From assembly GCF_003260975.1 (NCBI RefSeq), contig NZ_CP030041.1:5831501-5895500 (forward strand): 64,000 nt of DNA, written 5' to 3'. The notes below the pieces were generated by a model, which had not been told where the DNA came from, made no database searches, and saw only the letters and a list, made by a program, of their open reading frames with translations. A program made the position numbers and the translations under genes. Shown in pieces: positions 13,443 to 59,500 of the stretch (positions within the stretch are counted from its first letter, which is position 1; each line of letters begins with the position of its first letter). Origin of the DNA: Echinicola strongylocentroti (GTDB lineage: Bacteria > Bacteroidota > Bacteroidia > Cytophagales > Cyclobacteriaceae).

Positions 13443-14843
13443 ATGCGAACGATAAAAAATACATTGACCGTCCTGTTCTTTTGTTTATGGAGCAGCGGGT
13501 ATTCACAAGAGCTTGTCGGCTCCTTGGACGAATTACTTCCGTATTTGTCCCAAGATGGAGCAGAGGTAACGATAGCACCAGGCACTTATACCATAACAGC
13601 AGCAGATATTGCCGAAGGACGCTACCAAGGCATTACCACTATCCGGAAGCACAAAGGCTATGCATTATTGCTTTTTGAAGGGAATAACAGCACTTATGAT
13701 TTTACAGATGTCACCATTAATGTGGAGACGGCTGGTTTCAGTGATTACGGGGATTTTGATGAGTTTTACGAAGTACAGGTGACAGGCAATGACAACATCA
13801 TAAAAAACCTTACGCTGACTGACGTAGGATCAGTCCATGATTACCCCAAAAGAAGAGCTTGCAATATCGTCATGGACGGCGCCAATAACAGGATTGAAGG
13901 TTTTCATGTCACCACACGGGGATCATTTCCTTATGGTTATGGAGAGTCCTTTGGCAAGGGAGGAAATAATGTGATCGGGCATTATAAACATTCGGCTCTT
14001 TTGGTAAGGGGATATAAAAACCATGTGAAAAATTGTAGCATCATCCATCGGTCTTATGGTCATGCCATCTTTATGCAAGCGGCGGACAAGCCGCTGATAG
14101 AGGGCTGCTATGTGGAAGGCCAGATGCGGTCTACAGATGATATGCTGGAAGAAGAAGGTACGGGGTCAGAAGCGGATAAGGTGGATTTTATGACCTATTT
14201 TGATTATAAGCTTCCTCAAGGCTATATGCTCAGCCTCGGCGAAGAGGGCATACGTGCTTATAATGGCGGAGAAACTATCATAGATGGTGTAGAATATGTC
14301 CGTGGTACTTCTAATCCCACCATCCTAAACTGTACAGTAAAAAACATGCGAGCTGGCGTGACCCTCACCCACGCTACAGGTACCAAGTATGTAGAAGGTT
14401 GTGTGGTAATTGGTTGTGAGCGTGGGTATTGTATAGGATCTGGCGATATAGTGGATTGCTATGCGGACACACAGTATGGGCCAGCCTTGGGCGTAGACTA
14501 TGCCACCGATCATGGAACGAATGCCGAAATAACGCTTTTGCCTTATGACGGCCCTTCCTATAATGGGAGTAAGCATGCTGCTATCATCATTGGGCATGAC
14601 CACTATATTACTTTGAAGGGAGAAGTGCCGGATGCTGACCAAGATTTAAAAATCAACGTTGGTGGAGATAATCGCACCATTGGACTATTAAAAAAGGATG
14701 AAAATTATCCTGCTTCCAATATTGTCCTTCACAATTTGACCGGTTATCCCGTGGTAATGGACGATAACAGTAAAGGCTGTACGGGGATTTCTGTCGGTAG
14801 CGTAACAGATCAAGGAAGGAACAACCATGTGTTTGAAAAATGA
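13443..14843 (+). CDS. Orphan beta-helix family protein, single-domain form
   Basis: A 466-residue exported protein (signal peptide MRTIKNTLTVLFFCLWSSGYSQ) made of one right-handed beta-helix. Homologous domains form residues ~35-480 of the proteins at 39826 and 56768. Conserved blocks are LLFEGNNSTYDFTDV, GSFPYGYGESFGKGG, KHSALLVRG, NCSIIHRSYGHAIFMQAA, RSTDDML, GEEGIRAYNGG and THATGTKYVEGC. Repeated Asp, His, Arg and Tyr in these blocks make a catalytic role (lyase or hydrolase) plausible. I do not recognise the family: it lacks the motifs of PL1, PL6, GH28, GH141 and GH120 that I know. Unlike its two paralogs it has no CBM and no T9SS sorting domain, so it is probably periplasmic and acts on imported oligosaccharides, while the others act on polymer outside. 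That division of labour is inference. Confidence 0.6.
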   Translation: MRTIKNTLTVLFFCLWSSGYSQELVGSLDELLPYLSQDGAEVTIAPGTYTITAADIAEGRYQGITTIRKHKGYALLLFEGNNSTYDFTDVTINVETAGFSDYGDFDEFYEVQVTGNDNIIKNLTLTDVGSVHDYPKRRACNIVMDGANNRIEGFHVTTRGSFPYGYGESFGKGGNNVIGHYKHSALLVRGYKNHVKNCSIIHRSYGHAIFMQAADKPLIEGCYVEGQMRSTDDMLEEEGTGSEADKVDFMTYFDYKLPQGYMLSLGEEGIRAYNGGETIIDGVEYVRGTSNPTILNCTVKNMRAGVTLTHATGTKYVEGCVVIGCERGYCIGSGDIVDCYADTQYGPALGVDYATDHGTNAEITLLPYDGPSYNGSKHAAIIIGHDHYITLKGEVPDADQDLKINVGGDNRTIGLLKKDENYPASNIVLHNLTGYPVVMDDNSKGCTGISVGSVTDQGRNNHVFEK

Positions 14844-14897
14844 TCATAGAGCTAGTTTTGCCCATTTACAAGGGGCTAGGCTGTTAATGAAAAAGAT

Positions 14898-16340
14898 ATG
14901 AAAAAGTATTGTATTTGGTTTCTTTTATTAATTCTTACTATTTCATGTGGCCCAGAAAAAGAGCATAAAAAAAATGTTCTGCTCATTTGTATTGATGATT
15001 TGCGTCCAGAATTAAATTCCTTCGGAGCCACCTATATTAAATCTCCACATATCGATAAGTTGGCTGCAGATGGACGTGCTTTTCATAGGCATTTTGTAAA
15101 CGCTCCAAGTTGTGGCCCTTCTAGGTATACCTTATTGACAGGTCAATATGGACTCCAGTACCGCCGACATTATAACCAACCACTATTTTCGAGGGCGGCA
15201 GAATTTCAGAAGGATGCTGTTTTGGGCGATGCTAGTATGCCAGCGTGGTTTCGGCAAAATGGTTATACAACCGTTTCTGTAGGAAAGGTCTCTCATCACC
15301 CAGGAGGTAGAGGTGGGGAAAATTGGGATAATGATTCCATACCGGAAATGCCCAGTGCATGGGACAGACACTTGATGCCGGTAGGAGATTGGAAGACACC
15401 TCGTGGAGCCATGCATGGACTTGCTTATGGAAAAGTGAGGGAACCCAATCAAAGAGATGTGATAGAATCGGTAGACGGAGGAGACGATAGCTATCCTGAT
15501 GGGCTTATCGCAGAGGAAGGCTTAAGACAACTCGAAGACCTGGCCGCAGCCGATAAGCCATTCTTTTTAGCTATCGGTCTTATTAAACCTCATCTCCCTT
15601 TTGGAGTGCCTAAAGAGTATTTGGATTACTATGAGGGTGTGGACATACCACCTATTCCTCATCCTGAAAAACCAAATGGAAAAACCACTTGGCATGGTTC
15701 CAAGGAATTTATGAATTACAATCGCTGGGGAAAAGATCCTAGAAAAGATGCTGAGTTTGCCATGACTTTAAAAAAATATTATGCGGCCTGTGTGAGTTAT
15801 GCCGACAAGCATGTGGGAGACATTCTGGATAAATTAAAAGAAACTGGGCAAGACCAAAACACCATTGTAGTAGTATGGGGAGATCATGGTTGGCATTTGG
15901 GTGAACATGCAATCTGGGGTAAGCACAGTTTATTCGAAGAGTCGCTGCATTCTCCTTTGATTATTTTTGATCCTGCGATGTCCCAAAAAGGAAAATCCAC
16001 CAATGCGCTTGTAGAGACGTTGGATGTTTTTCCAACACTTTGTGATTTGACACAGATCGGAAAGCCTGAATATTTACAAGGTATATCCCTTTTACCTTTC
16101 ATGAAAGACCCGAGCTCAAAGGGACATTCTGCTCTGGCATATTCATCAGGCGCTACTACTATCAGGACAGATCGGTACAGGTTTACGCAAGATGCAAGCG
16201 GAAATATGGAATTATATGACCATATGGCTGATGAATACGAAATCCAAAATGTCGCTATGGAAAACCCTGTAATGGTGGAGAAATTGAAAAAACTTATCAT
16301 AGATAAGGCAGGAGAAATTGCTTTTGTTTGGGATCCATAA
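14898..16340 (+). CDS. Iduronate-2-sulfatase-like S1 sulfatase, lipoprotein
   Basis: A 480-residue lipoprotein (MKKYCIWFLLLILTISC, lipobox Cys 17). The opening CIDDLRPELNSFGATYIKSPHIDKLA is typical of the iduronate-2-sulfatase branch of S1 (S1_7-like by recall). The formylglycine signature is CGPSR with C72. GKVSHHPGG replaces GKWH, as is usual in this branch, and GLIKPHLPFGVP and WGDHGWHLGEH are also branch-typical. Such enzymes remove 2-O-sulfate from uronic acids, but marine relatives act on other sulfated sugars. Together with the heparinase-type lyases and GH39 it points to a sulfated uronic acid in the substrate. The gene sits between the single-domain beta-helix gene and the first GH95-like gene. 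Confidence 0.85.
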   Translation: MKKYCIWFLLLILTISCGPEKEHKKNVLLICIDDLRPELNSFGATYIKSPHIDKLAADGRAFHRHFVNAPSCGPSRYTLLTGQYGLQYRRHYNQPLFSRAAEFQKDAVLGDASMPAWFRQNGYTTVSVGKVSHHPGGRGGENWDNDSIPEMPSAWDRHLMPVGDWKTPRGAMHGLAYGKVREPNQRDVIESVDGGDDSYPDGLIAEEGLRQLEDLAAADKPFFLAIGLIKPHLPFGVPKEYLDYYEGVDIPPIPHPEKPNGKTTWHGSKEFMNYNRWGKDPRKDAEFAMTLKKYYAACVSYADKHVGDILDKLKETGQDQNTIVVVWGDHGWHLGEHAIWGKHSLFEESLHSPLIIFDPAMSQKGKSTNALVETLDVFPTLCDLTQIGKPEYLQGISLLPFMKDPSSKGHSALAYSSGATTIRTDRYRFTQDASGNMELYDHMADEYEIQNVAMENPVMVEKLKKLIIDKAGEIAFVWDP

Positions 16341-16396
16341 ATGGACATTCAACGATTTGAAGCTGATCATTACAATTATAAAACCTAATAATAAGC

Positions 16397-18703: not shown

Positions 18704-18738
18704 CCAAGATAATTAGCAACGACTAAACGTTAAAAAAG

Positions 18739-20379: not shown

Positions 20380-20431
20380 TCTTTACATCACTTGTGCAAA
20401 TAATTAAATAAACCATTGTAAATAACCTGAA

Positions 20432-22930: not shown

Positions 22931-22947
22931 AATAACCTTAAGTACTT

Positions 22948-25479: not shown

Positions 25480-25568
25480 ACCATCGCTAGATGCGGTTCG
25501 TCATCCAAGGCCTTCACTAAGGATGGGCTATGGCTAGGGAATCCAGCAATACGTCAATAAATTAAATT

Positions 25569-36034: not shown

Positions 36035-36045
36035 AAGTAGCAATC

Positions 36046-37804: not shown

Positions 37805-37857
37805 ACTTGGGTTCGAAGACGATGAGAGAGTAACGTAAAGTGGCCAACTTATTAAGG

Positions 37858-39825: not shown

Positions 39826-42800
39826 ATGAAAACAGACTTTTACCTGAGAGGAGGTAGTAAGTTGCGCTACCTATTTTGTATGAAGATGTTTCTTGTCGCG
39901 TGGCTATGGAGTGTATGCGGCATGGCACAGACTACAGTGGCCTCGCTGGCGGAATTGAAACCGTACCTTAAGCAAGATAATGTCGATGTGAAAATGACAC
40001 CAGGGGTTTACACCATCACAGCAGAAGATGTGGCCAATGGGCTGTTTGATGATGAGACAACCATCTCTGGGGTTACTGTAAAGGCGCTTCTATTATTTGA
40101 AGGAAGCAATAGTACCTATGATTTTTCGGACGTGACCATACAAGTAGAAACGGCCGTTTTCCAAGCCTATGGCAATGTTCAAGTTTATGAAGTCCAGGTC
40201 ATTGGAAATGAAAATGTGCTTAAAAACCTCACCTTAGAAGATGTGGGTTCGGTGCATGATCGCCCAACAAGAGGTGCATTGAATATATGCATGGACGGTA
40301 GGGCAAACCGGATAGAAGGTTTTCATGTAACGGCAAAGGGATCCTATCCTTATGGGTATGGAGATGCTTTTGGCAAGGGTGGCTCGTATACCATCAAACA
40401 TTATAAACACAGTGCTTGCCTCATCCGGGGAGAATCCAACCACTTAAAAAACAGTACTTTTATTCACCGATCCTATGGTCATTGTATTTTTATGCAGGCA
40501 GCCAGCAATCCATTAATCGAAGGCTGTCTGGTGGAAGGAGAAGTAAGGAGTACCGACGATATGCTGGCAGAGACTTCTGGACCTGCCTATGATATCGATT
40601 TTATGACCGATTGGGGATACAGACTGCCTGCCGGCTATATGTTGAGTACGGGGGAAGCTGGTATCAGGGCATATAACGGTGGCCAGACTGTGATCGATGG
40701 AGTGGAATATTCTCGCGGGACCTCTAATCCCACCGTTTTAAACTGTACCATTAAATACATGCGTACCGGGGTCACCATAGCCCATGCCACGGGTACCAAA
40801 TACGTAGAAGGATGTACAGCGATAGGTTGTGAAAATGGATTTTCCTTAGGCTCTGGGGATGTGGTGGACTGTGCTGCGGACTGCACTTATGGCCCTGTGT
40901 ATGCCTCTACGTACGAAAATGACCGCAATTATAATGCTGACATTACCATTCTTCCGGCCAGTGATCCCTACTATAATGGCTCTGGAAGCGTGGCATATAT
41001 AGGAGGAAGCGGCCATCAAATCACCTTAAAAGGATCATCAGAAGCCCTAGAGCAGGGATATAAGATCAAAGTGGGCGGGGATAAGAATAATATCCGGCTA
41101 CTTAATGGCAACCTTCCCCATCAGAATGATTTTGCAGCATCGGACTTTGAGCTTAACAACCACACCAATATCCCTGTATTTCTCTCGTCAAAGTCCTCGG
41201 GTATCGTGGGGCAGTCAGGAGGAATGGTGACCGATTTAGGGACCAACAATAATTTGGTACATACTGCCGTGCCGGTGCTTGATATTGAAGCGGAAGATTA
41301 TACAGACATGAGTGGTGTGACTACCGAAACCACTACGGATAATAATGGTGGAGAAAACATCACCTCCGTTGAAGGGGATGATTGGTTGGAATATCAGATT
41401 GACGTTCCCTATAGCGGGACATATTTTATGGATTATCGAGTAGCCAGTGCATCTGTTACGGGTGATTTTGTAGTGCTTGCTGAAGAAGATACGTTGGAAA
41501 ACATTACTTTTCCGGCTACCGGGGGTGGGCAAACATGGTCTACCACCAGATCACCCGCGGCTTTTTACCTAAGCAAAGGTACCCATACACTGAAGGTACA
41601 CGCCAATAGTCCAGGGTGGAACCTTAATTGGATGCAGTTATTATTGGAATGTGCGGAGACTCCTATCGTCCCTTTTGGGGAGGAATCCAATTCCCTAGGA
41701 ATGAGCATTCGTAGGGAACAAACTGCGTCATGGACTGTTTTTCCTGGCAATACAATTAGCCTGCAGCCTGAGCCACTATTGGGAGGCAGCTGGACTTGGG
41801 CTGGACCAAATGGATTTACAGCCAACTCCCGAGTGGTCGATATCCAAAATATAGATGTGGATGATGCGGGAGCTTATGTAGCCACTTATACCAATGATTG
41901 TGGTCAATCCACTTCGGTGGAGTTTACAGTTGTAGTACAAAATGCATTGGAAATAGAGGCAGAGGATTATTCGGACATGAGCGGAGTGGAGACAGAAGAT
42001 ACTGATGATACTACTGGCACAGAGAATGTTACGGCTATAGATGCGGGAGATTGGATGGAGTATTCCGTCGAGGTGGCTGTTTCCGGAACCTACTCCGTGG
42101 ACTATCGCCTGTCCAGTGAGGATGAAGGGGATTTTACCTTAAGTATAAATGGTGAAGAAAAAGAGACGGTTGATTTTACCGCTACAGAAGGCACTCCTCC
42201 ATGGGAAACCATCGCCGGCATTACTTCCTATTACCTAGAGGAGGGCACCCACACTTTTCGTATTACTGCCAATACCCCCGGCTGGAAAATCAATTGGGTG
42301 AAGTTGAATAGTGAGCAATTTGTCAATCCGTGTGAATTGCCATTTTCGCCTGAAGGATTTTCCATAAAAAATGAAACTGTAGAATGGTCTTCTGGGTTGA
42401 TCGATATTGGCTGTGCGGCTACAGTAAATGCGTATGTTGAGCTTTCTGAAGCTGGTTCTTTAGGTTCGGAAGACCATATCAACCTATATTACAGGTTGGA
42501 TGGAAGTGAAAAGGTGGCCATTCTCGAAAATTCCGGTTCATTGGCCGAAGCGGCAGGAATAGTAAGGGAGTTGGATGGAGAGACATTGGAGCTTATCATA
42601 GAAGGTAGCAGTGCTAGCGCCACGGATTTTTATACGATCAATAAAATCAATATTGTAGAAAGCAGTGACCCATTTGCCAGAATAGAGGCCGAGGACTTTA
42701 CCGAAGCTGACGGGCCAAGGGCCGGTAACACTGGTGATGTAGGAGGAGGACAGAATTTAGGCTCGATAGTACCCGGTGCATGGAGCATGTATGCCGATTT

Positions 42801-45800
42801 AGACCTTACCGATGTGAAAAGCATCGATGCCAGAGTGGCCTCTATTTATGATGATTCGTATGTGGAAGTGAGGATAAATGCCGTGGACGGCCCGCTCATC
42901 GGTACGTTGGAAGTACCACAAACTGGTGATTGGCAAACCTATGAAACAGTCAGCGCTTATATCGAAGATGTCGTAGGGATTTATGATGTTTATTTGGTCT
43001 ATCAATCAGGTAGTTCCCATGTTTGTAATATCAACTGGTTCGAATTTTCGGATGCGTTCGTGGCTCCTCCCATCGATCCATATGAACGCTTTGAAGCCGA
43101 AAATTACGATGGACAGGAGGGAACCGATACCGTAGCTACATCCGACATGGATGGTGACCAAGAGTTAGGGGATCTTCAGGATGGTGACTGGGTAAGGTAC
43201 GACGGACTTGATTTTTCTGATGCGTCGACTTTAACATTAAGACTGGCCAGTGATTCCGAAGGTAGCGGCACCGTCGAACTGCGTTTGGATGCAGTAAATG
43301 GTCCGATTATATCCATTTTGGATGTGCCGGATACAGGTTCACTCGGGGATTGGCAGACGGTGGCTACCCAGATCGATAGGGTAGAAGAAGAACACGATAT
43401 CTTTTTGGTATTCAAAGGAGAAGGTGATGATCTATTGCGATTAAATTGGCTGCAATTTGATATTTATGAGAACCCCAATGAACGGATAGAAGCAGAGGAT
43501 TTTGATGACCAATTTGGTGATCCCAATGTGGCCGGTACCACTTCGGATGTAGATGGTGGGATGGATTTACGAGGGATATTTCCTGGTGATTGGATCATGT
43601 TTACTGATATCGACCTCACGGGTGCCAAGAGCATTACTGCTCGGATAGGTTCGCTATATGATGATGCCTATATAGAAATAAGGGATGCATCTGTGGATGG
43701 TCCTGTCATCGGCAACATCCCCCTTCACAACACTGGTGGATGGCACAGCTGGGAGACCGTCACTGGAAGCATTGAGGAACTGCAAGGATTGCATGACCTA
43801 TACTTTATTTTCAAAACTGAAAGTAGCCCCAATGTTTGTAATATCAACTGGTTTCAGCTTTCAGGCCTAAAGGTAGATGCTGTCATCGATCCTTTCGCCA
43901 GGATTGAAGCGGAGGATTATTCCGGTGAAAAGGGCACTGCTATAGCGACCACCACCGACAGTGATGGCGAGGAAGAGGTGGAAGGCCTCGACCAAGGTGA
44001 CTGGATCAAGTTTAATCAGGTAAGTATGGATGATGTTGGCAGAATAGATGTACGTGTGGCAAGTACCTGTGATGACTGCCATATCCAGCTACGTTCCGGT
44101 GCTTACGATGGGCCGCTTTTGGCGGAGATGGATATCCCCAATACAGGAGCGACCAATTCTTGGGAGACCATCAATGCACCAGTCACTTCATCAGAAGGTA
44201 TACATCATCTTTATTTGGTATTCCAAGGTGGACAGGACATGGCTGTCAAAGTCAATTGGTTGCAGTTTTTTGAGTTTGAAATTCCAGCAGGGTACTTGGA
44301 AGCGGAAGACCATGATGATATGTATGGCATTCAGACACAAGAAACATCCGATGAGTCTGGAGGAGAAAATGTGGGCTGGGTCCACAATGACGATTGGATC
44401 ATGTTCAGCGAGGTGGACCTTACCGATATTTCCATGGTGGATGCCCGATACAGTTCTCCCAATACCGGGTGCGGGCTGGAAGTACGTTTGGGAGCTGTGG
44501 ATGGGCCTTTGGTCAGCTATATTGATCAACCAAGTACCGGAGACTGGGACAATTGGCAAACCGCCAGTGCCAATGTGCTGGACACGGAAGGGGTCCATGA
44601 TGTTTACATCATCTTCAAAGGTGGAGGAGGCTATCTGTCCAATCTCAATTGGCTTTATTTCAAAGAAGGAGAAAGGGTTTTTGAAAGGGTTGAGATAGAA
44701 GACTTTACTACCATAAGTAGTGGTCCTCGTGTAGCGTCTTCTACTTCTGATGTGGATGGTGGAGCTGATATCCGTTCCGTAAAACCAGGCAATTGGACAT
44801 ATTATGAGAACTTGGACCTCACTTCGGCCAAAAGCTTAACAGTGAGATCGGGAACACAGGTACCCGATGCACGTGTGGAAATACGGCTAGACGATCCTAA
44901 TGGAACCTTGGTGGGCGAAGTCCCCTTGATCAATTCAGGTGGATGGCATAATTGGGTAAATTCCTCAGCCAATATCGAAGGGGCAGAGGGAGTGCAAGAT
45001 GTATATTTGGTCTATCAGACCGATAGCAGTGCTAATGTAGGGAACTTTAATTGGTTTGAGTTTTCCAGCACAACCTTGCAGCAGGACGTGGATCCTTTAG
45101 CAAGAATAGAGGCCGAAAATTACGATTTGGTAAAAGGAACTTCTGTTGAGACCACCACCGATACTGATGGGGTAAAAGAGCTCATGGGTAACGATGGAGA
45201 TTGGATTGCCTTTGGCAATTTGGACTTGAGTGAAATTGGTCGTTTGGACCTGCGGGTAGCCAGTAATCAAGATGGAGGTACGATCGAAGTCAGGTCCGCA
45301 GACTACCTCGGTGAACTGCTTGCGACCATAGAAGTACCAGGCACGGACTCGTTCACTGGTTGGGAAACGATAAAAGGAGAAATCAGCGATATTGCCGATA
45401 AACAGCATATATTCCTTGTTTTCAAGGCAAACAGTGAACAACCTATTAAAGTGAATTGGCTTCAGTTTAAACCGAAACCCATTGATATTGGTGAAAATAG
45501 TAAAGTAGAAGCTGAAAAATACTATGAACAAGTGGGAGTAGAAACCCAAATCACCACTGATGAAACTGGTCATGAGCATGTGGGAATGATCGATAACGGA
45601 GACCATATTTCCTTTGATGTCAATGTACTCCAAAGTGGCATTTACAAGGTGTCATTTAGGGTTTCTTCCGAAAGCACAGGAGGTGAAATTGCCATGAGGA
45701 CGGATGGTGATCATCTGGGCACTACGGCTGTGCCAGTGACAGGAAGCAAGGAAAGCTGGAAAACCGTGGAAGCCCTGATTAAGTTGAACGCTGGTAAACA

Positions 45801-47106
45801 GGTCCTGGCGTTTGAATTTTTAGGAGATGGTGAAGACCTATTTGATCTAAACTGGATCCTATTTGAGCTAAGCGGTATTGACCTGAGTCTGCAGACAAGG
45901 ACAAAAGGCAAAGTTTCCGACAATAGTATACAAACAGATTTTGAGCTTCTAAACCAAGGGAATGAATCCCTATCCTTGGATAGTTTGACCATTCGCTATT
46001 GGTTTACTGCTGAGGATGCTGCCCCGCTAAGCTTTAATGTTGATTATGCGGAACTGGGGGGTGAAAATATCACTGGTAAATTCCATTCCAGCGCTCCCGT
46101 TCGAAAAGGAGGCTATACCTTCCTTGAGATGGACTTCCAGTCGGGGATAGACCTTATAGGAGGGATGAGCACAGGAGATATCCAAACCCGCATAGCGAAG
46201 AATGATTGGACCGATTTCAGTGAAGACGATGACCATTCATTTATTGCATCTAGCAGTTATGTGGAAAACCAGAAAGTAACCCTATACTATAACGGGAACT
46301 TGATTTGGGGGACAGTGCCAGAGATAGAGCCCGCTGAAACGGCCTTGGAAGTTTATCATAAAGCTGGTGATTTCAACTCTCCTGCTGACAATCAACTAAA
46401 ACCACAATTCAAACTGGAAAACACGGGCAATACCCCGGTAGCTTTAGCAGATATCAAGGTACGTTATTGGTTTTCGGAGGAGGATGAGGCTCCCGTTAAT
46501 TTCTATTTGGATTGGGCAGAAATGGGTGGCCAGGGCATAGATGGTGCGATTTATGAAAATGAATCCGAAGGAATTGGAGCCAATAAATACTTGGAACTGA
46601 CCTTTACTGGAAATGACACCCTGCACAGCCTGAGCGGAACGGGAGAAATCAGGACCCGATTGGCCAAAACCAATTGGAGCGATTTTGAAGAAACCGACGA
46701 TCATTCTTATGTAAGCACTAAAACGTATGAATCTAATGAGAAGATCACCGTTTATATCAAAGAGGAACTCGTGTGGGGATACGAGCCCATGGGGTCAGAA
46801 AGTGCCAGGGAATACCCAACAGAAGCAGCCTCCAAAGAAGGTGAAGTCATCCTTACGGAGGTCCAGCTCTATCCAAACCCTGCTTCTGAGAAATTGACGG
46901 TAGATTATGCAGTGCCACAAAAAGGCCTGGTAGTACTAAAAGTACTGGATATAACAGGAAAGGTACTCCATAATGAAATGAATGAGGTGGACGCTGGCAG
47001 GCACACTACTGAATTAAGTGTCTCTGATCTATCTAGCGGAGTGTACATTCTTCAGTTGAAGCAGTTTGGCAACCAATCCGCGCTTAAGTTCATTGTGAAG
47101 CATTAA
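39826..47106 (+). CDS. Giant secreted beta-helix protein with ten CBM6-like and two CBM3-like modules
   Basis: A 2426-residue T9SS-secreted protein. After the signal peptide (to ~35), residues ~35-480 are the orphan beta-helix domain shared with 13443 and 56768 (GSYPYGYGDAFGKGG, HRSYGHCIFMQAA, RSTDDML). Ten CBM6-like modules, each opening with an IEAEDY-type motif, begin near residues 486, 709, 953, 1088, 1221, 1360, 1491, 1623, 1761 and 1894. An Ig-like domain lies at ~612-707 (VDDAGAYVATYTNDCG) and an unassigned beta domain at ~836-945. Two CBM3-like modules follow (~2019 and ~2174: IRYWFTAEDAAPLSFNVDYAE and VRYWFSEEDEAPVNFYLDWAE). Residues ~2344-2426 are a type A T9SS sorting domain (VQLYPNPASEKLTV). 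It probably binds and cuts the polymer at the cell surface. The catalytic role of the beta-helix is inference. Confidence 0.8.
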   Translation: MKTDFYLRGGSKLRYLFCMKMFLVAWLWSVCGMAQTTVASLAELKPYLKQDNVDVKMTPGVYTITAEDVANGLFDDETTISGVTVKALLLFEGSNSTYDFSDVTIQVETAVFQAYGNVQVYEVQVIGNENVLKNLTLEDVGSVHDRPTRGALNICMDGRANRIEGFHVTAKGSYPYGYGDAFGKGGSYTIKHYKHSACLIRGESNHLKNSTFIHRSYGHCIFMQAASNPLIEGCLVEGEVRSTDDMLAETSGPAYDIDFMTDWGYRLPAGYMLSTGEAGIRAYNGGQTVIDGVEYSRGTSNPTVLNCTIKYMRTGVTIAHATGTKYVEGCTAIGCENGFSLGSGDVVDCAADCTYGPVYASTYENDRNYNADITILPASDPYYNGSGSVAYIGGSGHQITLKGSSEALEQGYKIKVGGDKNNIRLLNGNLPHQNDFAASDFELNNHTNIPVFLSSKSSGIVGQSGGMVTDLGTNNNLVHTAVPVLDIEAEDYTDMSGVTTETTTDNNGGENITSVEGDDWLEYQIDVPYSGTYFMDYRVASASVTGDFVVLAEEDTLENITFPATGGGQTWSTTRSPAAFYLSKGTHTLKVHANSPGWNLNWMQLLLECAETPIVPFGEESNSLGMSIRREQTASWTVFPGNTISLQPEPLLGGSWTWAGPNGFTANSRVVDIQNIDVDDAGAYVATYTNDCGQSTSVEFTVVVQNALEIEAEDYSDMSGVETEDTDDTTGTENVTAIDAGDWMEYSVEVAVSGTYSVDYRLSSEDEGDFTLSINGEEKETVDFTATEGTPPWETIAGITSYYLEEGTHTFRITANTPGWKINWVKLNSEQFVNPCELPFSPEGFSIKNETVEWSSGLIDIGCAATVNAYVELSEAGSLGSEDHINLYYRLDGSEKVAILENSGSLAEAAGIVRELDGETLELIIEGSSASATDFYTINKINIVESSDPFARIEAEDFTEADGPRAGNTGDVGGGQNLGSIVPGAWSMYADLDLTDVKSIDARVASIYDDSYVEVRINAVDGPLIGTLEVPQTGDWQTYETVSAYIEDVVGIYDVYLVYQSGSSHVCNINWFEFSDAFVAPPIDPYERFEAENYDGQEGTDTVATSDMDGDQELGDLQDGDWVRYDGLDFSDASTLTLRLASDSEGSGTVELRLDAVNGPIISILDVPDTGSLGDWQTVATQIDRVEEEHDIFLVFKGEGDDLLRLNWLQFDIYENPNERIEAEDFDDQFGDPNVAGTTSDVDGGMDLRGIFPGDWIMFTDIDLTGAKSITARIGSLYDDAYIEIRDASVDGPVIGNIPLHNTGGWHSWETVTGSIEELQGLHDLYFIFKTESSPNVCNINWFQLSGLKVDAVIDPFARIEAEDYSGEKGTAIATTTDSDGEEEVEGLDQGDWIKFNQVSMDDVGRIDVRVASTCDDCHIQLRSGAYDGPLLAEMDIPNTGATNSWETINAPVTSSEGIHHLYLVFQGGQDMAVKVNWLQFFEFEIPAGYLEAEDHDDMYGIQTQETSDESGGENVGWVHNDDWIMFSEVDLTDISMVDARYSSPNTGCGLEVRLGAVDGPLVSYIDQPSTGDWDNWQTASANVLDTEGVHDVYIIFKGGGGYLSNLNWLYFKEGERVFERVEIEDFTTISSGPRVASSTSDVDGGADIRSVKPGNWTYYENLDLTSAKSLTVRSGTQVPDARVEIRLDDPNGTLVGEVPLINSGGWHNWVNSSANIEGAEGVQDVYLVYQTDSSANVGNFNWFEFSSTTLQQDVDPLARIEAENYDLVKGTSVETTTDTDGVKELMGNDGDWIAFGNLDLSEIGRLDLRVASNQDGGTIEVRSADYLGELLATIEVPGTDSFTGWETIKGEISDIADKQHIFLVFKANSEQPIKVNWLQFKPKPIDIGENSKVEAEKYYEQVGVETQITTDETGHEHVGMIDNGDHISFDVNVLQSGIYKVSFRVSSESTGGEIAMRTDGDHLGTTAVPVTGSKESWKTVEALIKLNAGKQVLAFEFLGDGEDLFDLNWILFELSGIDLSLQTRTKGKVSDNSIQTDFELLNQGNESLSLDSLTIRYWFTAEDAAPLSFNVDYAELGGENITGKFHSSAPVRKGGYTFLEMDFQSGIDLIGGMSTGDIQTRIAKNDWTDFSEDDDHSFIASSSYVENQKVTLYYNGNLIWGTVPEIEPAETALEVYHKAGDFNSPADNQLKPQFKLENTGNTPVALADIKVRYWFSEEDEAPVNFYLDWAEMGGQGIDGAIYENESEGIGANKYLELTFTGNDTLHSLSGTGEIRTRLAKTNWSDFEETDDHSYVSTKTYESNEKITVYIKEELVWGYEPMGSESAREYPTEAASKEGEVILTEVQLYPNPASEKLTVDYAVPQKGLVVLKVLDITGKVLHNEMNEVDAGRHTTELSVSDLSSGVYILQLKQFGNQSALKFIVKH

Positions 47107-48807: not shown

Positions 48808-48819
48808 AGATTAAAATTG

Positions 48820-50643: not shown

Positions 50644-50645
50644 TA

Positions 50646-51524: not shown

Positions 51525-51554
51525 CCAGAGGGAAAGGCGCGCTAGGTTACCTTA

Positions 51555-51745: not shown

Positions 51746-51775
51746 CTTCGCATTGATAGAATTAAATATGTTTAT

Positions 51776-51787
51776 TAAAAGGTTTTA
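51776..51787 (+). promoter_or_regulatory. Palindromic operator-like motif
   Basis: TAAAAGGTTTTA, identical to the core at 13415-13426 and one base from 39727-39738. It ends 2 bp before the annotated ATG at 51790, so an operator here could block translation or transcription start, or the true start may be the ATG at 51802. Confidence 0.3.
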
Positions 51788-51789
51788 TA

Positions 51790-54543
51790 ATGATTGATAA
51801 TATGTGTCGGAGGATCATCATCATAGTTTTTGGGCTTTTTGTTTGGGGGGAGAGTACGGGGCAGACCCACCGGATCATTCCTACTCCCGATGACCTACCC
51901 CAGGCCTATCCCCGTATTTATGTAAGTCCAGAAGACAAAAGCGATTTGATAGAAACGGTTGCTGACGAAGAGTGGGCAACAGGGGTGGTGTCTGGAATCC
52001 ATGACCGTATCGATGAGCATGTTTATCGCCATGAGAAAGATAAGGAGTGGATGATTTCCCGTTTACAAATGTACTGGAATACCAAAGCTACGGATGTTTA
52101 TATTGATGGGATCTACTATTCCCATGCCTCAGGAAAAGCCCCCGTGCCTACAGTTCGGTATTCTGGGTCGAGGGATCCTGTCACGCCCTATAAGCGACCC
52201 AAGCTGGAAGATATCCAACCCTATATGGATGATGAAAGAGGCTTGTTTTTTCACAATACCAGCAAAGAAGGTAATCCCCTTGAATGGGTGGAACAGTCCA
52301 AAACCGGGAAGCAAATAGAAAGTATTAACCAAGAGATAATCGGTTATGGCCGTGATGCTGCGTTTTTGTATTGGTTAGAGGAGGACGATCGGTTTGCGGA
52401 ATTTGCTTTCGACCTGTTTGATACTTATATGGATGGGATGTATTACCGTAGCGAGCCCATTGACATCTCCAATAGCCATATACAGACCTTAGTTGGGCTT
52501 TCTTCCTTTCAGGTGATCCACGAGGGCATCCTTCAGGACCTGTCGATATTATATGATTTCCTTCATGGCTATATTGAGACCAACCATGGTGAAGAAATAG
52601 CAGGGTATGAGGAGACCTTCAAGAAGTGGATCGATCTGATCATACAAAATGGTGTACCCCAAAATAACTGGAACCTCCATCAGGCCAAGCATATTTTGAA
52701 GGTGGCGATGGTGCTTCGTGACAATGTACACTATGAAGACGGCAAAGGCCGGGAGTATTATATCGATTACCTCCTGAACCAAACTTCAGCCAGACAATGG
52801 TCGCTGACGAAGTTTATGGATTATGGATATGATTTAGAAAACGGAGTGTGGGCCGAGTGTCCAGGGTATTCGCAAGGAGTCACCAATGATCTGACTCATT
52901 TTATTCGGGATTACTATACTAATTTTGACTTTAACATTTTGCCTTATACTCCTGTAATGGCAAAGGCCGTAAAGATGCTTCCACAGTACTTGTTTCCCAA
53001 TGGAGATATTACAGCCTTTGGGGACACCTATTATGGTGCTGTCAGCACAGGCCCAATGGAAGATATGATCTGGATGGCCCAGCAGACCGATGATGAAAAA
53101 ATGGAGGAGGAGTTTACGGCGATGTATAGGTTATTTGAGCCGAATGCAGAAAAAATGGGGAATAAATACAGGCCTCGGCCCGAAATTTCTTCGCTTTTTT
53201 CCAGTAAGCAGCTCAGCTTGGATCCAGCTTATAAGAAGGGTGAATTGACTGATTACCTTACCCAGACTTTTTATGCGCCCAATGTAAGTTGGCATGTCCA
53301 GCGTATCGGTCAAGACCCGAAGAATGGTATGATGGTCTCCATGGTCGGCTCGCTCGGTAACCATATGCACGCCAATGGGATCAGCGTAGAGCTATACGGA
53401 AAGGGATATGTACAAGGAGCCGAATCGGGTAGGGGATCCAGTTATTTCCAGCCGGATTACTTGGAATATTATTCCCAATTCCCTGCGCATAATACGGTGA
53501 TGGTAGATGGTATTTCGTCCTATCCTGAGATGCTGAGCAATCATGCGTTTGACTTGAATGCGGAATACCCACTATCCGGAAAAAAGGAAGGTTACTATCC
53601 AAGCATTACTTTTTCTGATGTGTATTTCTTGGAACCTGAATCACAGAGCGACCAACGGCGCCAAGTGAGCATTGTGAAAACCAGCGAATCAAGGGGGTAT
53701 TATGTGGATATATTCCGGTCCAAAAAACAGCGTGAAGGTGATAAGTTTCATGACTATTTTTACCATAACCTTGGACAGTCCATGACCATTACGGATGAGG
53801 AAGGGGAGGCATTAAAGCTGGTCCCTAGTGATGAGATGGCCTTTGCTGGGGGGCATTTATTTGCATTGGATTATCAATGGGACAAAAAATCCATTACTAC
53901 CAATGAAGACTACCAAGCGGAATGGAAAATAGCACATCCTGACGGGGAAGACGTATATATGAACCTTTGGATGAAAGGAACCAAAGGCAGGGAAGTGTTT
54001 TCGCTTAAATCACCACCTACCAAAGCATTTAGAAAATCAGCTGATCTGCCTTATGACGCTTCCAAGGAGCCGTTTTTGACCATTGCTGCACGGCAGCATG
54101 GAGAGGCTTGGGAGCATCCTTTTGTCTCTGTGTATGAGCCATATACCTCTTCAGAAGGCAAAAGCATAGCCTCTATCGATGGATTTGAGGACGAAAATGG
54201 GAACAGTGGATTTGTAGGCATAAAAATCACCCATAAGTCAGGAAGGGAAGACTTGGTCTTTTCCTCAGCTGATGGTGCCGTAGCCAAATTCAACGGGATA
54301 TCCACTGATGCATCCTATGCTTTGGTAGGGAAAGAAGCGGATGGGAGAATGGTGTTATTTCTCGGTGATGGAAATCAGTTGGAGCTGGATGGCTATTCCT
54401 TGACCACCACAGAAAAAGGTACTGTGGTCATGGAGGTAAGCGAGGGAAGTGTCATGCTCCATAATGAGGTTACTGTGAAGGTGACCAAGGAAGGAAAAAG
54501 CCAAACTATTGATCCAGGAGATTTCCGTAAAATTAAATTCTGA
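51790..54543 (+). CDS. Heparinase II/III-type polysaccharide lyase
   Basis: A 917-residue exported protein (signal peptide to about residue 25; an ATG at 51802 would also fit). It is the full-length relative of the truncated gene at the window start. Domains: an N-terminal region to about 190, an alpha/alpha toroid (~190-500: NWNLHQAKHILKVAMVL, ENGVWAECPGYSQGV) and C-terminal beta-sandwich domains. The likely active-site loop is SLGNHMHANGISVELYGKGYVQG, followed by FPAHNTVMVDGIS. Other blocks are YYVDIFRSKK, FYHNLGQSMTI and LWMKGTKGREVF. Such folds cleave uronate linkages; I recall a resemblance to large marine lyases but cannot fix the PL number. It is preceded by a repeat and a motif and followed by another lyase gene 133 bp away. 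Confidence 0.75.
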   Translation: MIDNMCRRIIIIVFGLFVWGESTGQTHRIIPTPDDLPQAYPRIYVSPEDKSDLIETVADEEWATGVVSGIHDRIDEHVYRHEKDKEWMISRLQMYWNTKATDVYIDGIYYSHASGKAPVPTVRYSGSRDPVTPYKRPKLEDIQPYMDDERGLFFHNTSKEGNPLEWVEQSKTGKQIESINQEIIGYGRDAAFLYWLEEDDRFAEFAFDLFDTYMDGMYYRSEPIDISNSHIQTLVGLSSFQVIHEGILQDLSILYDFLHGYIETNHGEEIAGYEETFKKWIDLIIQNGVPQNNWNLHQAKHILKVAMVLRDNVHYEDGKGREYYIDYLLNQTSARQWSLTKFMDYGYDLENGVWAECPGYSQGVTNDLTHFIRDYYTNFDFNILPYTPVMAKAVKMLPQYLFPNGDITAFGDTYYGAVSTGPMEDMIWMAQQTDDEKMEEEFTAMYRLFEPNAEKMGNKYRPRPEISSLFSSKQLSLDPAYKKGELTDYLTQTFYAPNVSWHVQRIGQDPKNGMMVSMVGSLGNHMHANGISVELYGKGYVQGAESGRGSSYFQPDYLEYYSQFPAHNTVMVDGISSYPEMLSNHAFDLNAEYPLSGKKEGYYPSITFSDVYFLEPESQSDQRRQVSIVKTSESRGYYVDIFRSKKQREGDKFHDYFYHNLGQSMTITDEEGEALKLVPSDEMAFAGGHLFALDYQWDKKSITTNEDYQAEWKIAHPDGEDVYMNLWMKGTKGREVFSLKSPPTKAFRKSADLPYDASKEPFLTIAARQHGEAWEHPFVSVYEPYTSSEGKSIASIDGFEDENGNSGFVGIKITHKSGREDLVFSSADGAVAKFNGISTDASYALVGKEADGRMVLFLGDGNQLELDGYSLTTTEKGTVVMEVSEGSVMLHNEVTVKVTKEGKSQTIDPGDFRKIKF

Positions 54544-54676
54544 TTATAGGCTTTGTGAGATTTCCATGTTTTCTGTGAGTACCTATTTAATTTTCCTGTG
54601 ATTACTGGCATCATTGGGGATAACCATAAATTGAATTAACCTTATCAAACAAACGAATCAGCGAATACCATTTGAT

Positions 54677-56635
54677 ATGAAAGTAATTAACAAACAACCC
54701 AGACTAGCCGTTTACCTGCTTTTTATCTGTGCATTGACTGTCCTTCCAAGAGCTGGCCAATCACAGATCAACAGTAAGCAGCTGGATATCCCAGCTTACC
54801 TTCAGCTAGCAAAAAAAGGCGATATATACCCCAATGCAGCCCAATTGGAAATGCTGGATGCAGTGCTTCCCAAGACGGCCTTTCAGCCAGCGCCCTCTTT
54901 TCAAAACAGGAAATATTGGCAGAAAATGGCGGACACTGACTTGGGAAAGAAATACATCCTAGAAGCCGAAGAGGCTATCGGCCAGGCTCCTGAAGTGCCC
55001 ATTTCGGATGCCATCTATCGAAGGGCAAACAAGGAAGGAAACCGAGGGATTTATAAGCCCAGGTATTATCGGACGATGGACAGGCTGGAGAAGTACATTT
55101 TAGCGGAGTGCATGCTGAATGATGGACGCTATCTAGCCCAGATCGAAACGTATATAGAAGCCATTATGGAAATGAAAAGTTGGCTTCATCCCAACCATGA
55201 TGATTCGGACAATTCCGTTTTGGAAGGAAAACGGGTGTCGATTGATCTTGGAGCACGTAAATTCGGGTTGGTTTTGGCACTTGCAGATGCTTTACTAGAA
55301 AATAAGCTGTCCACCACCTTGAGAAATGAGATAGCAGAACAACTTCAGTGGCGGATCATTGATACCTATTTGGCATCCTGTAAAGAAGATGACCCTGAAA
55401 GCAACCATTGGATCAGAAGTACCAGCAACTGGAATTCTGTCTGCACCAGCGGTACGCTTTTTACGACGATGGTGATATCAGATGATGAAGAAGAAAGAAA
55501 AGCAGCTATTGGAGCAGCGCTCAATAGTATGGTGTTTTACTTGTCAGGTTTTGGAGAGGACGGGTACTGCTCGGAAGGTACGGGATACTGGAACTATGGT
55601 TTTGGGCATTACCTTTACCTAGCAGAAATTTTGTTTGATTATTCAGGAGGAAAGATTGACCTCTTCCGCTTTGATAACCCGGAAAAACTCCAAAAAGTAG
55701 CTGATTTTCCTGAGAATTTCCAAGTGCATCAAGGGCTTTATGCCCCTTTTTCGGATGGAGTCACCAGGGTCAAAGAAGGAGGCGACAACTTTGCCTATGT
55801 GATGTCGGCAAAATATTACGGCGCCCAGAAGCCCAAGGGCTTTGTTCCTGATGAGGCTGTGCAATCCTTGGTGGTGTGGCCAGATTATCAACAGTACATT
55901 TCAAATGAAAAGGGCAAGAATCCATTACCGCCAGTAACCTATTTTGATGATTATGGTATAGTGATTTCCCGTGGTCAACAAACGACTCCCTTTTCCATTG
56001 CTGTCAAAGCAGGACATAATGCCGAAAACCACAACCACAGTGATGTAGGAAGTTATGTGATCGCCTATGGTGAGCAGATTATGGCAGGTGATATCGGTGC
56101 GCCCTCGTATATAGCAGGCGCTTTTTCCAAGGACAATCCTGCCAGAAGTTCTTGGGGACACCCCGTGCCCAAGATCAATGACCAGCTCCAATCCAATGGT
56201 AGAGAGTACAAAGGGAGGATCACCAGCACGGAATTCACCAAGAATAAAGATAAAGTAGAGGTGGATATACAACCCGCCTATGAAATTCCTTCTTTGACCT
56301 CCTTGTCCAGAACTGTGGAAAATGATAAGACTGGTCAGGGTACCATCAGTATTACGGATCATTTTGCGGCCAGTCGCCCAGTAGACTTTGGGGTAGCCAT
56401 CATGACCTTGGCCGAATATGAAATCGTCGATTCGCGAACTGTTATTATCACCGAAAACGGGTATAAAATAAAAGCAGAAATCACTGGAGAGGGGGGCGAC
56501 TTGGTCATTAAGGATGAACAAGTCCCTGTGGAACACCTGAGAGAAGGAGGGCCGGCATATAGGATTGGGGTGGACTATACAGCGCCCGTAGCAGAGGGCA
56601 GCATTACGGTACGGTACAGCCCACTTCAAGAGTAA
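54677..56635 (+). CDS. Heparinase II/III-type lyase, compact form
   Basis: A 652-residue exported protein (signal peptide to about residue 30). It has the usual two-part fold: an alpha/alpha toroid (~75-370: NWNSVCTSGTLFTTMVI, DGYCSEGTGYWNYGFGHYLYL) and a C-terminal beta-sandwich. The strongest signature is KAGHNAENHNHSDVGSY near residue 450, a His/Asn/Asp cluster typical of heparinase II-like enzymes that holds catalytic His and metal ligands. EGTGYWNYG supplies the likely catalytic Tyr. It belongs to a different branch from the other lyases here: the HNHSDVG motif is absent in them. It probably works on oligosaccharides in the periplasm. Its neighbours are another lyase upstream and the beta-helix/T9SS gene downstream. 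Confidence 0.82.
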   Translation: MKVINKQPRLAVYLLFICALTVLPRAGQSQINSKQLDIPAYLQLAKKGDIYPNAAQLEMLDAVLPKTAFQPAPSFQNRKYWQKMADTDLGKKYILEAEEAIGQAPEVPISDAIYRRANKEGNRGIYKPRYYRTMDRLEKYILAECMLNDGRYLAQIETYIEAIMEMKSWLHPNHDDSDNSVLEGKRVSIDLGARKFGLVLALADALLENKLSTTLRNEIAEQLQWRIIDTYLASCKEDDPESNHWIRSTSNWNSVCTSGTLFTTMVISDDEEERKAAIGAALNSMVFYLSGFGEDGYCSEGTGYWNYGFGHYLYLAEILFDYSGGKIDLFRFDNPEKLQKVADFPENFQVHQGLYAPFSDGVTRVKEGGDNFAYVMSAKYYGAQKPKGFVPDEAVQSLVVWPDYQQYISNEKGKNPLPPVTYFDDYGIVISRGQQTTPFSIAVKAGHNAENHNHSDVGSYVIAYGEQIMAGDIGAPSYIAGAFSKDNPARSSWGHPVPKINDQLQSNGREYKGRITSTEFTKNKDKVEVDIQPAYEIPSLTSLSRTVENDKTGQGTISITDHFAASRPVDFGVAIMTLAEYEIVDSRTVIITENGYKIKAEITGEGGDLVIKDEQVPVEHLREGGPAYRIGVDYTAPVAEGSITVRYSPLQE

Positions 56636-56767
56636 CTTAGCTAATCGGTGACGGCTTTACCATTCGGTAATTTGTGAAATTCCTTGAATAGATTCCTATT
56701 GAAATATTGATTGGAACCAGCATGTTAATGAGCAAGTAAAACAATTTATCAACAAACCCAATAAGAT

Positions 56768-59500
56768 ATGTTAAACCGCATAAACCATTTTATAGCCACA
56801 AATAGCTTTTTTACCACCGTACTCCGGTTGATTGGTGTGGTATTACTTTATTTGATCAGTAATGTTGTTTATTCTCAAACAATGGTTCATTCACTTAGTG
56901 AACTGAAACCTTTTTTGGATGATGACGATGTCAATGTGAAATTAGCACCAGGGACTTATACGATCACAGCTGAAGATGTAGCCAATGGTGAAATAGGTAG
57001 TGACAGTGAAACGTGGCCTAACGTAAGTCGATTATTGGCATTTGAGGGCAATAACAGTACCTATGATTTTACAGATGTAAAATTCGATATTGATACAGAA
57101 GTGCTACAGGCTTTTGGAAGGAATGATGTCTATGAGTTGCATATCACTGGAAGTCATAATGTCATTCAACATCTTACCATAGAGGATTTAGGAAATACCC
57201 GACCAAATTTCCGTGCCACAAGTATTGTCGTTGATGGTTTGGACAATAGACTGGAAGGAATTCATATGACTGTAAGAGGTTCATACCCTTATGGATATGG
57301 TGATGCTTTTGGTAAGGGAGGTCCCCAAGTCATAAAACACTATAAACATAGCGCCCTGTTGGTAAGAGGAGAAAGTAACCATATAAAAAACTGTACTATT
57401 ATCCATAGGGCCTATGGGCACGCCATCTTTATGCAGGCAGCCGCCAAACCAATTATTGAAGGGTGTTATATAGAAGGTGAGGTTAGGTCCACCGATGATA
57501 TGTTAGCTGAAGAGGGTACAGGTTCCCCAGCAGACAATGTTGATTTTATGACCATCTGGGGTTATAAACTGCCAGCAGGATACGTGATGAGTCTTCAAGA
57601 AGAAGGAATTCGTGCTTATAATGCAGGGCAAACCATTGTAGATGGAACACTCTATAAACGTGGTACCTCTGATCCTACGATCATTAACTGTACCGTGAAG
57701 AATGTAAGGGGAGGTGTGACACTTGCCCACGCATCAGGGACCAAATACGTTGAAGGTTGTACCGTACTGAGTTCTGAACAGGGATATTCTGTTGGATCCA
57801 ATGGGAATATTGTGGATTGTAGCGCAGATGCCAAATATGGTCCCGTTTTGGGATTTGCATACTCCAGTGATAATAATAGTACGATTGACATAGCCATTAT
57901 TCCTAGTGACAGTATCCAAAATGGTGCTGGCTCTTTAGCTTATGTAGGAGGGTCCGACCATAAAATAACCTTTAGAAATGCGGAGTCCAGTATCAATCAA
58001 GGCTTAAAAATAAGCGTATCCGGTCCTAGGTACAGTGTGAGACGGCTGGACAGCACTGATACAAATAATGATTTGAATTCTTCCAATATAGAAATTTACA
58101 ATTATACGCCTTACCCCCTAGAACTTGCAGGTAACAGTGCTGACATATCAGGAGAGTCGTGTGGGCCAATCACAGACAATGGAGCGAATAACAATATCAA
58201 CAATAATGACTGCAGTGGGGCTTTGATTTCACCTTGGGAAAACAATGATGTCGGAACAGTAAAGAAAAATGGTCGTGCATCAGATCTTGGGGGACTATTT
58301 ACCATAGATGGTGCAGGCAAGGATATCTGGGATACATCGGATGAATTTCACTGGGTATATAAGGAAATGTATGGTGATGCAGTGATTACCGCCAAAGTAA
58401 ATAAACTGGGAAATACCCATAATTGGGCAAAGGCTGGATTGATGATACGGGAAGAAGCCGCAGGAGAAGGTTCTAAATATGCCATGGTAGGCATAACAGC
58501 TACTAAGGGAAGTGTTTTCCAGTTTAGAAATACAGAAGACGGCCCTACTTCTCACGAAATCCCTAAGGACGGAAAAGCGACTCCAAGTTGGCTTAAACTT
58601 GAAAGGCTAGGGGAAGTGATCACAGGATATATTTCGGATGATGGTATTTCTTGGAAAGAAATAGGAAGTACCTCTGTGGCAATGAATGCGACGGTTTCAG
58701 TTGGTATGTGTGCGACATCCCATAAAAAAGGCACTACTACAACAGCTACATTCAGGGGAGTACGCACAGCATCTCCTTCTGTGCACATCCCCCAAGTAGG
58801 TAAAACTTATTATATAGACAATAGGAGATGGAATGTCCGGTTGGCTGCAGATGGGAATAACAAACCCTATACGACTTCTGTAGACAGTATAGGAGCTAAA
58901 ACGGAGTGGGTAGTCAAGGCCAGTGATGTTCCTGAATATTTTTATTTGGAAAGTAATGGGGCTCCTACGAAGAGCCGAATAGCTTCTGATGGGATAGCCA
59001 ATGCTACCATGAAAGAAAATACTAACACTGAAGATGCAGCGAAATGGGAATTTGTCCCCATAAAAGAAGGAGTATATCATATCGTTACAAAGGATCCAAC
59101 CTTACCAAGGTTGTTGGTAGACAATGATGGGAACGTTAAAATGACAGGAGTAGAAGGTACTAACTTCTGGACCAGGTTTCAGTTTACCGTAGTACCAGAT
59201 CCGGAGGGCAAAGAACCGCTAGCAGTAAATAATGCAGCGCAAGTAAATGGGGAGAAGAGCAAGGCAGAGGTGGCCATATATCCCAATCCTGTCCAAAGCG
59301 AGCTCACCGTAAAAGTACCTTCCGCGACTTATCATCAGTATGTGATCTATGATGACTTAGGGAATACTTCATCAGTAGGAGATATTCCAGTGGATAGTAA
59401 TATTCTATCTATTGATGTCAGTAAGTTAGGAATTGGGGTCTATATGCTTCGATTGAACGGAGTGGAGAGAACGGATGGTTTTAAGATAATCAAGGAGTAG
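56768..59500 (+). CDS. Secreted orphan beta-helix protein with DUF1349-like and ricin-like domains
   Basis: A 910-residue T9SS cargo. A signal sequence (to ~37) is followed by the orphan beta-helix (~38-478) shared with 13443 and 39826 (LLAFEGNNSTYDFTDV, GSYPYGYGDAFGKGG, HRAYGHAIFMQAA, RSTDDML, EEGIRAYNAG). Residues ~488-670 are a concanavalin-like DUF1349-type domain (NWAKAGLMIREEAAGEGSKYA, WLKLERLGEVITGYISDDG). Residues ~671-813 look like a beta-trefoil ricin-type module. Residues ~826-910 are a type A sorting domain (VAIYPNPVQSELTVKV). The family relatives differ only in accessory domains, so the beta-helix is the shared working part. It is likely cell-surface or released, acting on polymer. 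The exact reaction is unknown. Confidence 0.75.
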   Translation: MLNRINHFIATNSFFTTVLRLIGVVLLYLISNVVYSQTMVHSLSELKPFLDDDDVNVKLAPGTYTITAEDVANGEIGSDSETWPNVSRLLAFEGNNSTYDFTDVKFDIDTEVLQAFGRNDVYELHITGSHNVIQHLTIEDLGNTRPNFRATSIVVDGLDNRLEGIHMTVRGSYPYGYGDAFGKGGPQVIKHYKHSALLVRGESNHIKNCTIIHRAYGHAIFMQAAAKPIIEGCYIEGEVRSTDDMLAEEGTGSPADNVDFMTIWGYKLPAGYVMSLQEEGIRAYNAGQTIVDGTLYKRGTSDPTIINCTVKNVRGGVTLAHASGTKYVEGCTVLSSEQGYSVGSNGNIVDCSADAKYGPVLGFAYSSDNNSTIDIAIIPSDSIQNGAGSLAYVGGSDHKITFRNAESSINQGLKISVSGPRYSVRRLDSTDTNNDLNSSNIEIYNYTPYPLELAGNSADISGESCGPITDNGANNNINNNDCSGALISPWENNDVGTVKKNGRASDLGGLFTIDGAGKDIWDTSDEFHWVYKEMYGDAVITAKVNKLGNTHNWAKAGLMIREEAAGEGSKYAMVGITATKGSVFQFRNTEDGPTSHEIPKDGKATPSWLKLERLGEVITGYISDDGISWKEIGSTSVAMNATVSVGMCATSHKKGTTTTATFRGVRTASPSVHIPQVGKTYYIDNRRWNVRLAADGNNKPYTTSVDSIGAKTEWVVKASDVPEYFYLESNGAPTKSRIASDGIANATMKENTNTEDAAKWEFVPIKEGVYHIVTKDPTLPRLLVDNDGNVKMTGVEGTNFWTRFQFTVVPDPEGKEPLAVNNAAQVNGEKSKAEVAIYPNPVQSELTVKVPSATYHQYVIYDDLGNTSSVGDIPVDSNILSIDVSKLGIGVYMLRLNGVERTDGFKIIKE

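Follow-up and report, generated by a model that had tools for sequence, protein, structure and literature searches.

Three homologues of the fucoidan lyase FdlA in three architectures at one polysaccharide utilisation locus of Echinicola strongylocentroti

Three copies of one beta-helix domain

To place a protein domain that occurs three times at one locus, we analysed a 64,000-nucleotide stretch of the Echinicola strongylocentroti genome (the window; contig NZ_CP030041.1, positions 5,831,501 to 5,895,500), in which three forward-strand genes encode relatives of the fucoidan lyase FdlA. The bare copy (13443..14843; 466 aa) has a signal-peptide-like N terminus and a beta-helix only, with residues 24–463 aligning to FdlA. 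The multimodular copy (39826..47106; 2426 aa) aligns to FdlA over beta-helix residues 37–477 and carries a type IX secretion system (T9SS) sorting domain at residues 2348–2425, and the third copy (56768..59500; 910 aa) combines a beta-helix (residues 39–477 aligning to FdlA) with a DUF1349/GH43_C2-like module (517–667) and a T9SS sorting domain (837–910). The N-terminal parts of the three proteins have in common a predicted right-handed beta-helix of about 440 residues, with pairwise identities of 59.6%, 53.9% and 54.6% over 458, 451 and 463 columns and E values of 3.8e-173, 1.6e-164 and 3.5e-158, far beyond chance. The sequence blocks PYGYG-x-x-FGKGG, H-R-x-YGH-x-IFMQAA and RSTDDML are present in all three translations. 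An earlier note, written from the DNA alone, had described this shared domain, its motif blocks and its use in one bare and two T9SS-tailed proteins with different binding modules, and each of these observations held. A profile search of the whole 6.25 Mb genome, with 24 of 24 candidates scored, found no fourth FdlA-type copy; all three lie in the window.

Pfam scans confirmed the architectures. Both long copies match Por_Secre_tail (PF18962), and the 466-aa copy matches neither this nor any other sorting domain; its N terminus has the look of a signal peptide without a lipobox, as judged by pattern and by eye. In the 2426-aa copy the scan matched CBM6 in ten stretches, the overlapping CBM35_2 model in nine and CBM3 in two, and each model for the DUF1349/GH43_C2-like module of the 910-aa copy falls slightly below its cut-off. 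Genome G341 holds an FdlA-type copy near the length of the 2426-aa gene, in an open frame of 2439 codons. The Pfam search thus identified the C-terminal modules but gave no specific family for the shared domain, which matched the generic Beta_helix model alone, above the cut-off in one copy and just below it in two; no NCBIfam model matched it in any of the three window copies. The domain had seemed unplaced because neither library has a specific model for it.

The shared domain is a full-length homologue of FdlA

A phmmer search of all Protein Data Bank (PDB) sequences with the bare copy retrieved nine distinct fucoidan lyase chains (7xz7–7xzf) at E values of 2.5e-151 to 5.3e-150, and the best match beyond these FdlA chains had an E value of 0.099. 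The match spans residues 24–463 of the 466. The other two copies were compared by alignment to the FdlA chain, and identity amounts to 239/429 residues for the bare copy, 261/431 for the 2426-aa copy and 254/431 for the 910-aa copy (56–61%). The shared domain is a full-length homologue of the FdlA catalytic domain: the finding of three copies is real, the family is already known, and the copies are fresh members of the FdlA kind. The term 'SFGM lyase' appears in the title of a 2003 paper. FdlA itself, like FdlB, comes from Flavobacterium sp. SA-0082 and acts on sulfated fucoglucuronomannan, a fucoidan of brown seaweeds. Published work on FdlA includes crystal structures and mutants and proposes an elimination that needs no metal; it describes fucoidan lyases as the rarer kind of fucoidan-degrading enzyme (PMC9410043).

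The earlier note had named a strong match to a characterised CAZy family as one result that would overturn its claim of novelty. In substance such a match is what we found, as FdlA is characterised; by the letter this holds only in part, as FdlA stood outside any CAZy family in 2022, when it was suggested that it might found a new polysaccharide lyase (PL) family (PMC9410043). Among the papers listed by our literature searches we found no later CAZy assignment of FdlA, and the main-text passages of PMC11943901 and PMC13380512 that we consulted do not mention it. FdlA shares a right-handed parallel beta-helix and elimination on uronate polysaccharides with PL1, PL3, PL6, PL9 and PL31, but is described as superposing poorly on these families (2.5–3.6 Å, identity below 15%), using different residues and, unlike the metal-dependent ones, needing no metal (PMC9410043). 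With the GH28 and GH141 hydrolases, which have a GH28-like (11889) and a GH141-like (5451) representative in the window, the FdlA-type copies share a Pfam beta-helix repeat signal, but each of those proteins also hits a Pfam family of its own, and neither of these families is matched by the FdlA-type copies.

Essential FdlA residues are conserved

Mutation of any of seven FdlA residues (D137, K141, H176, F179, E236, R240 and Y242) nearly abolishes activity, and the roles proposed are Lys141 as base, Arg240 as neutraliser and Tyr242 as acid (PMC9410043). The FdlA numbering used here fits all 11 mutated residues and places five ladder cysteines one position below those printed in PMC9410043. All seven essential residues are identical in the 2426-aa copy (D180, K184, H219, F222, E277, R281 and Y283; 40363..40674, forward strand) and in the 910-aa copy (D179, K183, H218, F221, E278, R282 and Y284; 57302..57619, forward strand), and six of seven are identical in the bare copy, which has Glu in place of Asp137. 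In the alignment to FdlA the catalytic set of the bare copy is E168, K172, H207, F210, E267, R271 and Y273. On the forward strand, its active-site block at 13944..13958 holds Glu168 (FdlA Asp137) and Lys172 (FdlA Lys141, the proposed base), 14061..14072 encodes His207 and Phe210 (FdlA His176 and Phe179), and 14241..14261 encodes Glu267, Arg271 and Tyr273 (FdlA Glu236, Arg240 and Tyr242; proposed roles from PMC9410043). Of the earlier suggestion of a beta-helix lyase or hydrolase with charged residues in fixed places, the lyase option agrees with these conserved catalytic residues. The window copies thus resemble FdlA in whole-domain alignment and essential residues and, for the two long copies, in a C-terminal T9SS tail such as that described for FdlA (PMC9410043). 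They differ from it at 39–44% of aligned residues and in their modules, with a CBM6/CBM35/CBM3 array or a DUF1349-like module where FdlA has F5/8 type C, and the bare copy, devoid of C-terminal modules, belongs to a separate Glu137 sub-clade.

Conservation extends across the family. We aligned 149 sequences, comprising 119 database proteins, the three window copies, FdlA and 26 loci from whole genomes, with the contig-end fragments L022 and L031 excluded. The database proteins derive from the best 120 of 394 matches, restricted to 0.55–1.75 times the query length, and under-sample long copies; the whole-genome loci carry no length restriction. H176, E236, R240, Y242 and R272 are invariant over the 149 sequences and K141 is present in 148, whereas position 137 is Asp in 84, Glu in 64 and Ser in one. 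More distant relatives keep H176, E236, R240 and Y242, with K141 absent in some (L035, L038, L098 and L100). The FdlA active site is therefore strongly constrained; among its main residues, it is the proposed base that varies most in far relatives. Five divergent sequences (L013, L035, L038, L098 and L100, of which L038 has an internal stop) carry Ser at position 137 and either Leu or Ile at position 141 and keep H176, E236, R240 and Y242; because the proposed base Lys141 is missing there, they could test its assignment.

Three lineages and a bare Glu137 clade

In a quick tree of 67 rows with SH-aLRT (Shimodaira–Hasegawa-like approximate likelihood ratio test) support, the bare copy falls in a narrow 17-row Glu137 clade (95*) nested in a wide 24-row Glu137 clade (98*). 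The 2426-aa copy pairs with P0061 (97*) and shares a 25-row group with FdlA (99*), and the 910-aa copy pairs with P0063 (88, not starred). The long branches L013 and L027 meet in this tree, which leaves its deep part unsure. Each window copy groups with sequences from elsewhere, which rules out a local triplication. The three copies represent three lineages and are therefore either old paralogues or separately acquired. Nearly all members of the bare copy's clade have Glu at 137, with P0020 and P0021 inside the clade carrying Asp. A comparison of 44 narrow-clade rows with 89 Asp137 rows shows positions that are invariant in the former but not in the latter, among them 137, 273, 278 and 318–320; in sequence, 273 and 278 adjoin R272 and H279, and 318–320 adjoin Y322, all residues tested in FdlA. 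The 910-aa copy, outside the clade, has the clade states at 318 and 319. Our literature searches, which were not aimed at the bare Glu137 sub-clade by name and left out most subscription papers, listed no description of it.

Architecture follows these lineages in part. Por_Secre_tail is present in all 27 long copies scanned with Pfam, of which two lie in the window and 25 in other genomes (all 22 from the genome scans of the species' own family and order plus three from the Maribacter family). Among 24 long copies (the 22 and the two from the window), 14 carry F5/8 type C, 11 ricin-type, 10 CBM6 and 7 PA14 modules. By contrast, the tail is absent from all 11 narrow-clade Glu137 copies scanned from whole genomes, and all end just past the beta-helix. 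Bare architecture extends to 63 of 64 Glu137 sequences; the exception, L002 of the wide clade (Pontiellaceae), has 994 aa and C-terminal parts that resemble the CBM array of the 2426-aa copy. A converse rule, that Asp137 means tailed, was refuted by nine Asp137 copies of 478–496 aa from the Maribacter stanieri family, bare by length. These nine share 67–71% identity with the domain of the 2426-aa copy, whose lineage therefore includes bare as well as tailed forms. Among database proteins beginning with Met, a crude lipobox pattern was seen in 4 of 57 with Glu137 and 5 of 61 with Asp137; it is absent from the bare window copy, and the N termini of relatives resemble ordinary signal peptides. 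With neither sorting tail nor lipobox, the bare copy is probably periplasmic. The earlier proposal of a family working both outside and inside the cell agrees with the two tailed copies, but 'inside' would here mean the periplasm, given the apparent signal peptide of the bare copy.

Patchy distribution across genomes

FdlA-type genes were matched in 8 of 295 genomes of the species' own family and 6 of 390 of its own order (G000 and G007 being in both sets), in 2 of 395 genomes of its own class (its own genome and one weak partial match, E = 3e-4) and in 17 of 397 genomes of the Maribacter stanieri family (one of them partial, E = 2e-4). The distribution is patchy. In these scans the best four or five candidates per genome were scored, so that copy numbers are lower bounds, and values of at least three to five recur. 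In two other genomes, five copies are packed into about 45 kb and about 50 kb; three copies per locus are therefore not unusual. Genome G999 (Pontiellaceae), the source of L002, has 15 genes or pieces that match the FdlA-type profile, and of ten copies read there, three are less than 35% identical to FdlA yet keep K141, H176, E236, R240 and Y242. A Pfam-confirmed tailed copy is also present in 9 of the 11 genomes holding the narrow Glu137 clade. A rule that tailed forms must accompany the bare form held at first in six of six genomes and was refuted by two Maribacter genomes, which have the bare Glu137 form only (23 of 23 candidates scored in each; one is a metagenome-assembled genome, of unstated completeness).

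Proposed division of labour and alternatives

From homology, conserved residues, architectures and lineage we infer the activity, substrate, location and division of labour of the window copies, and consider it highly probable that the three domains are FdlA-type fucoidan lyases, with the tailed copies acting on or outside the cell surface and the bare copy most likely in the periplasm. By homology, each copy would cleave sulfated fucoglucuronomannan, a substrate already among the guesses of the earlier note, at the mannose–glucuronic acid bond by metal-independent beta-elimination. In FdlA numbering, Arg240 and His176 would neutralise the glucuronic acid carboxylate in subsite +1, with Lys141 as the proposed base and Tyr242 as the proposed acid, and the expected products are trisaccharides that bear an unsaturated glucuronic acid and a branch of sulfated fucose. 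The two copies with T9SS tails and different carbohydrate-binding modules would cut the polymer on or outside the cell surface, and the bare copy would act in the periplasm on imported oligosaccharides, alongside sulfatases, GH95 proteins and further lyases encoded at the locus.

Several points weigh against this assignment. The bare copy differs from FdlA at the very position where alanine abolishes activity, and the FdlA mutants described in PMC9410043 are alanine changes and Y242F, with no Asp-to-Glu change among those described. Of the right-handed beta-helix and deep alkaline pocket that mark FdlA, the helix is predicted in the window copies from homology and the Pfam Beta_helix matches, and the pocket is argued solely from their 56–61% identity to FdlA. 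Tailed copies fail to accompany the bare copy in both Maribacter genomes. The FdlA product is already a trisaccharide, which leaves a periplasmic copy without work on exactly that product; the bare form should therefore differ in preference or take longer imports, and the clade-specific positions suggest a likely place for such a difference. An appreciable chance, though short of even, goes to a reading in which the FdlA fold and chemistry are kept but at least one copy has moved to oligosaccharides or to another uronic-acid polysaccharide, with a different backbone or sulfation pattern, the bare Glu137 clade being a functionally separate subfamily. The tree support for the narrow and wide clades, the clade-fixed positions at or beside FdlA-tested residues, the lack of tails in all 11 narrow-clade copies scanned and the genomes with the bare form alone all argue for it, but the remaining tested residues are all kept, Asp to Glu is a mild change, P0020 and P0021 carry Asp inside the clade, and the 910-aa copy shares two signature states from outside it. 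We tentatively extend this idea to a distinct branch of periplasmic fucoidan lyases that would prefer oligosaccharides or another sulfation pattern, in which case bare-only genomes such as the two from Maribacter might live on fragments released by owners of the secreted branch.

Loss of catalysis in one copy, leaving a carbohydrate-binding or regulatory paralogue, seems very unlikely: three copies per locus could permit it, and D137E might be its trace, but K141, H176, F179, E236, R240 and Y242 are kept in every copy. Still more improbable, to the point of being nearly dismissed, is the hitherto unknown lyase or hydrolase family that the earlier note claimed. The generic Beta_helix match and the missing NCBIfam model spoke for it, and it was rejected because the domain matches, directly and over its full length, an enzyme of known structure and biochemistry (PMC9410043).

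Under the favoured assignment to FdlA-type lyases, one locus offers three natural versions of a single catalytic domain that differ in export tags and binding modules, accompanied by a marked sub-clade whose signature positions lie close to the active site, and together these make a division of one fold between outside and periplasm easy to test. Where a library lacks a profile for FdlA, such genes stay annotated as 'hypothetical protein', as are many of the matches listed, and this label can hide fucoglucuronomannan loci in genome surveys.

Genes surrounding the three copies

Pfam scanning of 29 open reading frames identified the window as a polysaccharide utilisation locus with SusC/SusD, sigma factor and FecR genes. 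The locus is rich in lyases and sulfatases, but given these genes the earlier statement that the domain lies only among lyases, sulfatases and glycosidases is not literally true. The SusC-like (TonB plug) and SusD genes lie at 32669..37719 on the forward strand. Seven S1-type sulfatases begin at 1702, 3144, 14898, 28512, 47455, 48817 and 59621, and the glycosidases comprise three GH95 proteins, a GH39 protein and the GH28-like and GH141-like proteins named above. The protein at 5451–8294 combines a Beta_helix match with a GH141 insertion domain, and that at 25569–28412 a Beta_helix match with F5/8 type C; GH141 endo-fucanases are the subject of PMC12786026.

Lyase-like proteins begin at 110, 8385, 51790 and 54677. 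The protein at 51790..54543 (forward strand) matches a heparinase II/III C-terminal model and is related to Uly1040 (PDB 9vtk), by its name an ulvan lyase; the protein at 110–1690 matches the same chain over its C-terminal half only. The protein at 54677..56635 (forward strand) is related to heparinase chains such as 8r75. The 1166-aa protein at 8385..11885 (forward strand) gave a weak NPCBM match only in Pfam and none in the PDB; among its 116 relatives are proteins annotated as alginate lyase family, heparinase II/III-like or putative PLnc, and it represents a candidate uncharacterised lyase family. Mariniflexile ostreae encodes a relative of this protein and two FdlA-type proteins at near-neighbour locus tags. 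Removal of an unsaturated uronic acid is usually the work of GH88-type enzymes. No such gene (PF07470) lies in the window; the genome has 16 PF07470 matches, 14 above cut-off, and the nearest (5827870–5828808; 45.9 bits) ends some 2.7 kb upstream of position 5831501, where the window starts.

Genes that flank the bare copy (lyase-like genes, S1-type sulfatases and DUF6250) are found next to it in two Maribacter genomes as well. In Maribacter sp. HyVt-319 (L001), relatives of 54677, 51790, 1702 and 3144, in this order, precede the bare lyase, and relatives of 48817 and then 4640 follow it. Maribacter stanieri (L003) also has relatives of 14898 and 11889 immediately before the bare lyase; the S1-type sulfatase directly after the bare copy in the window (14898..16340, forward strand) has a 66% identical relative there, about 1.7 kb upstream of the bare gene.

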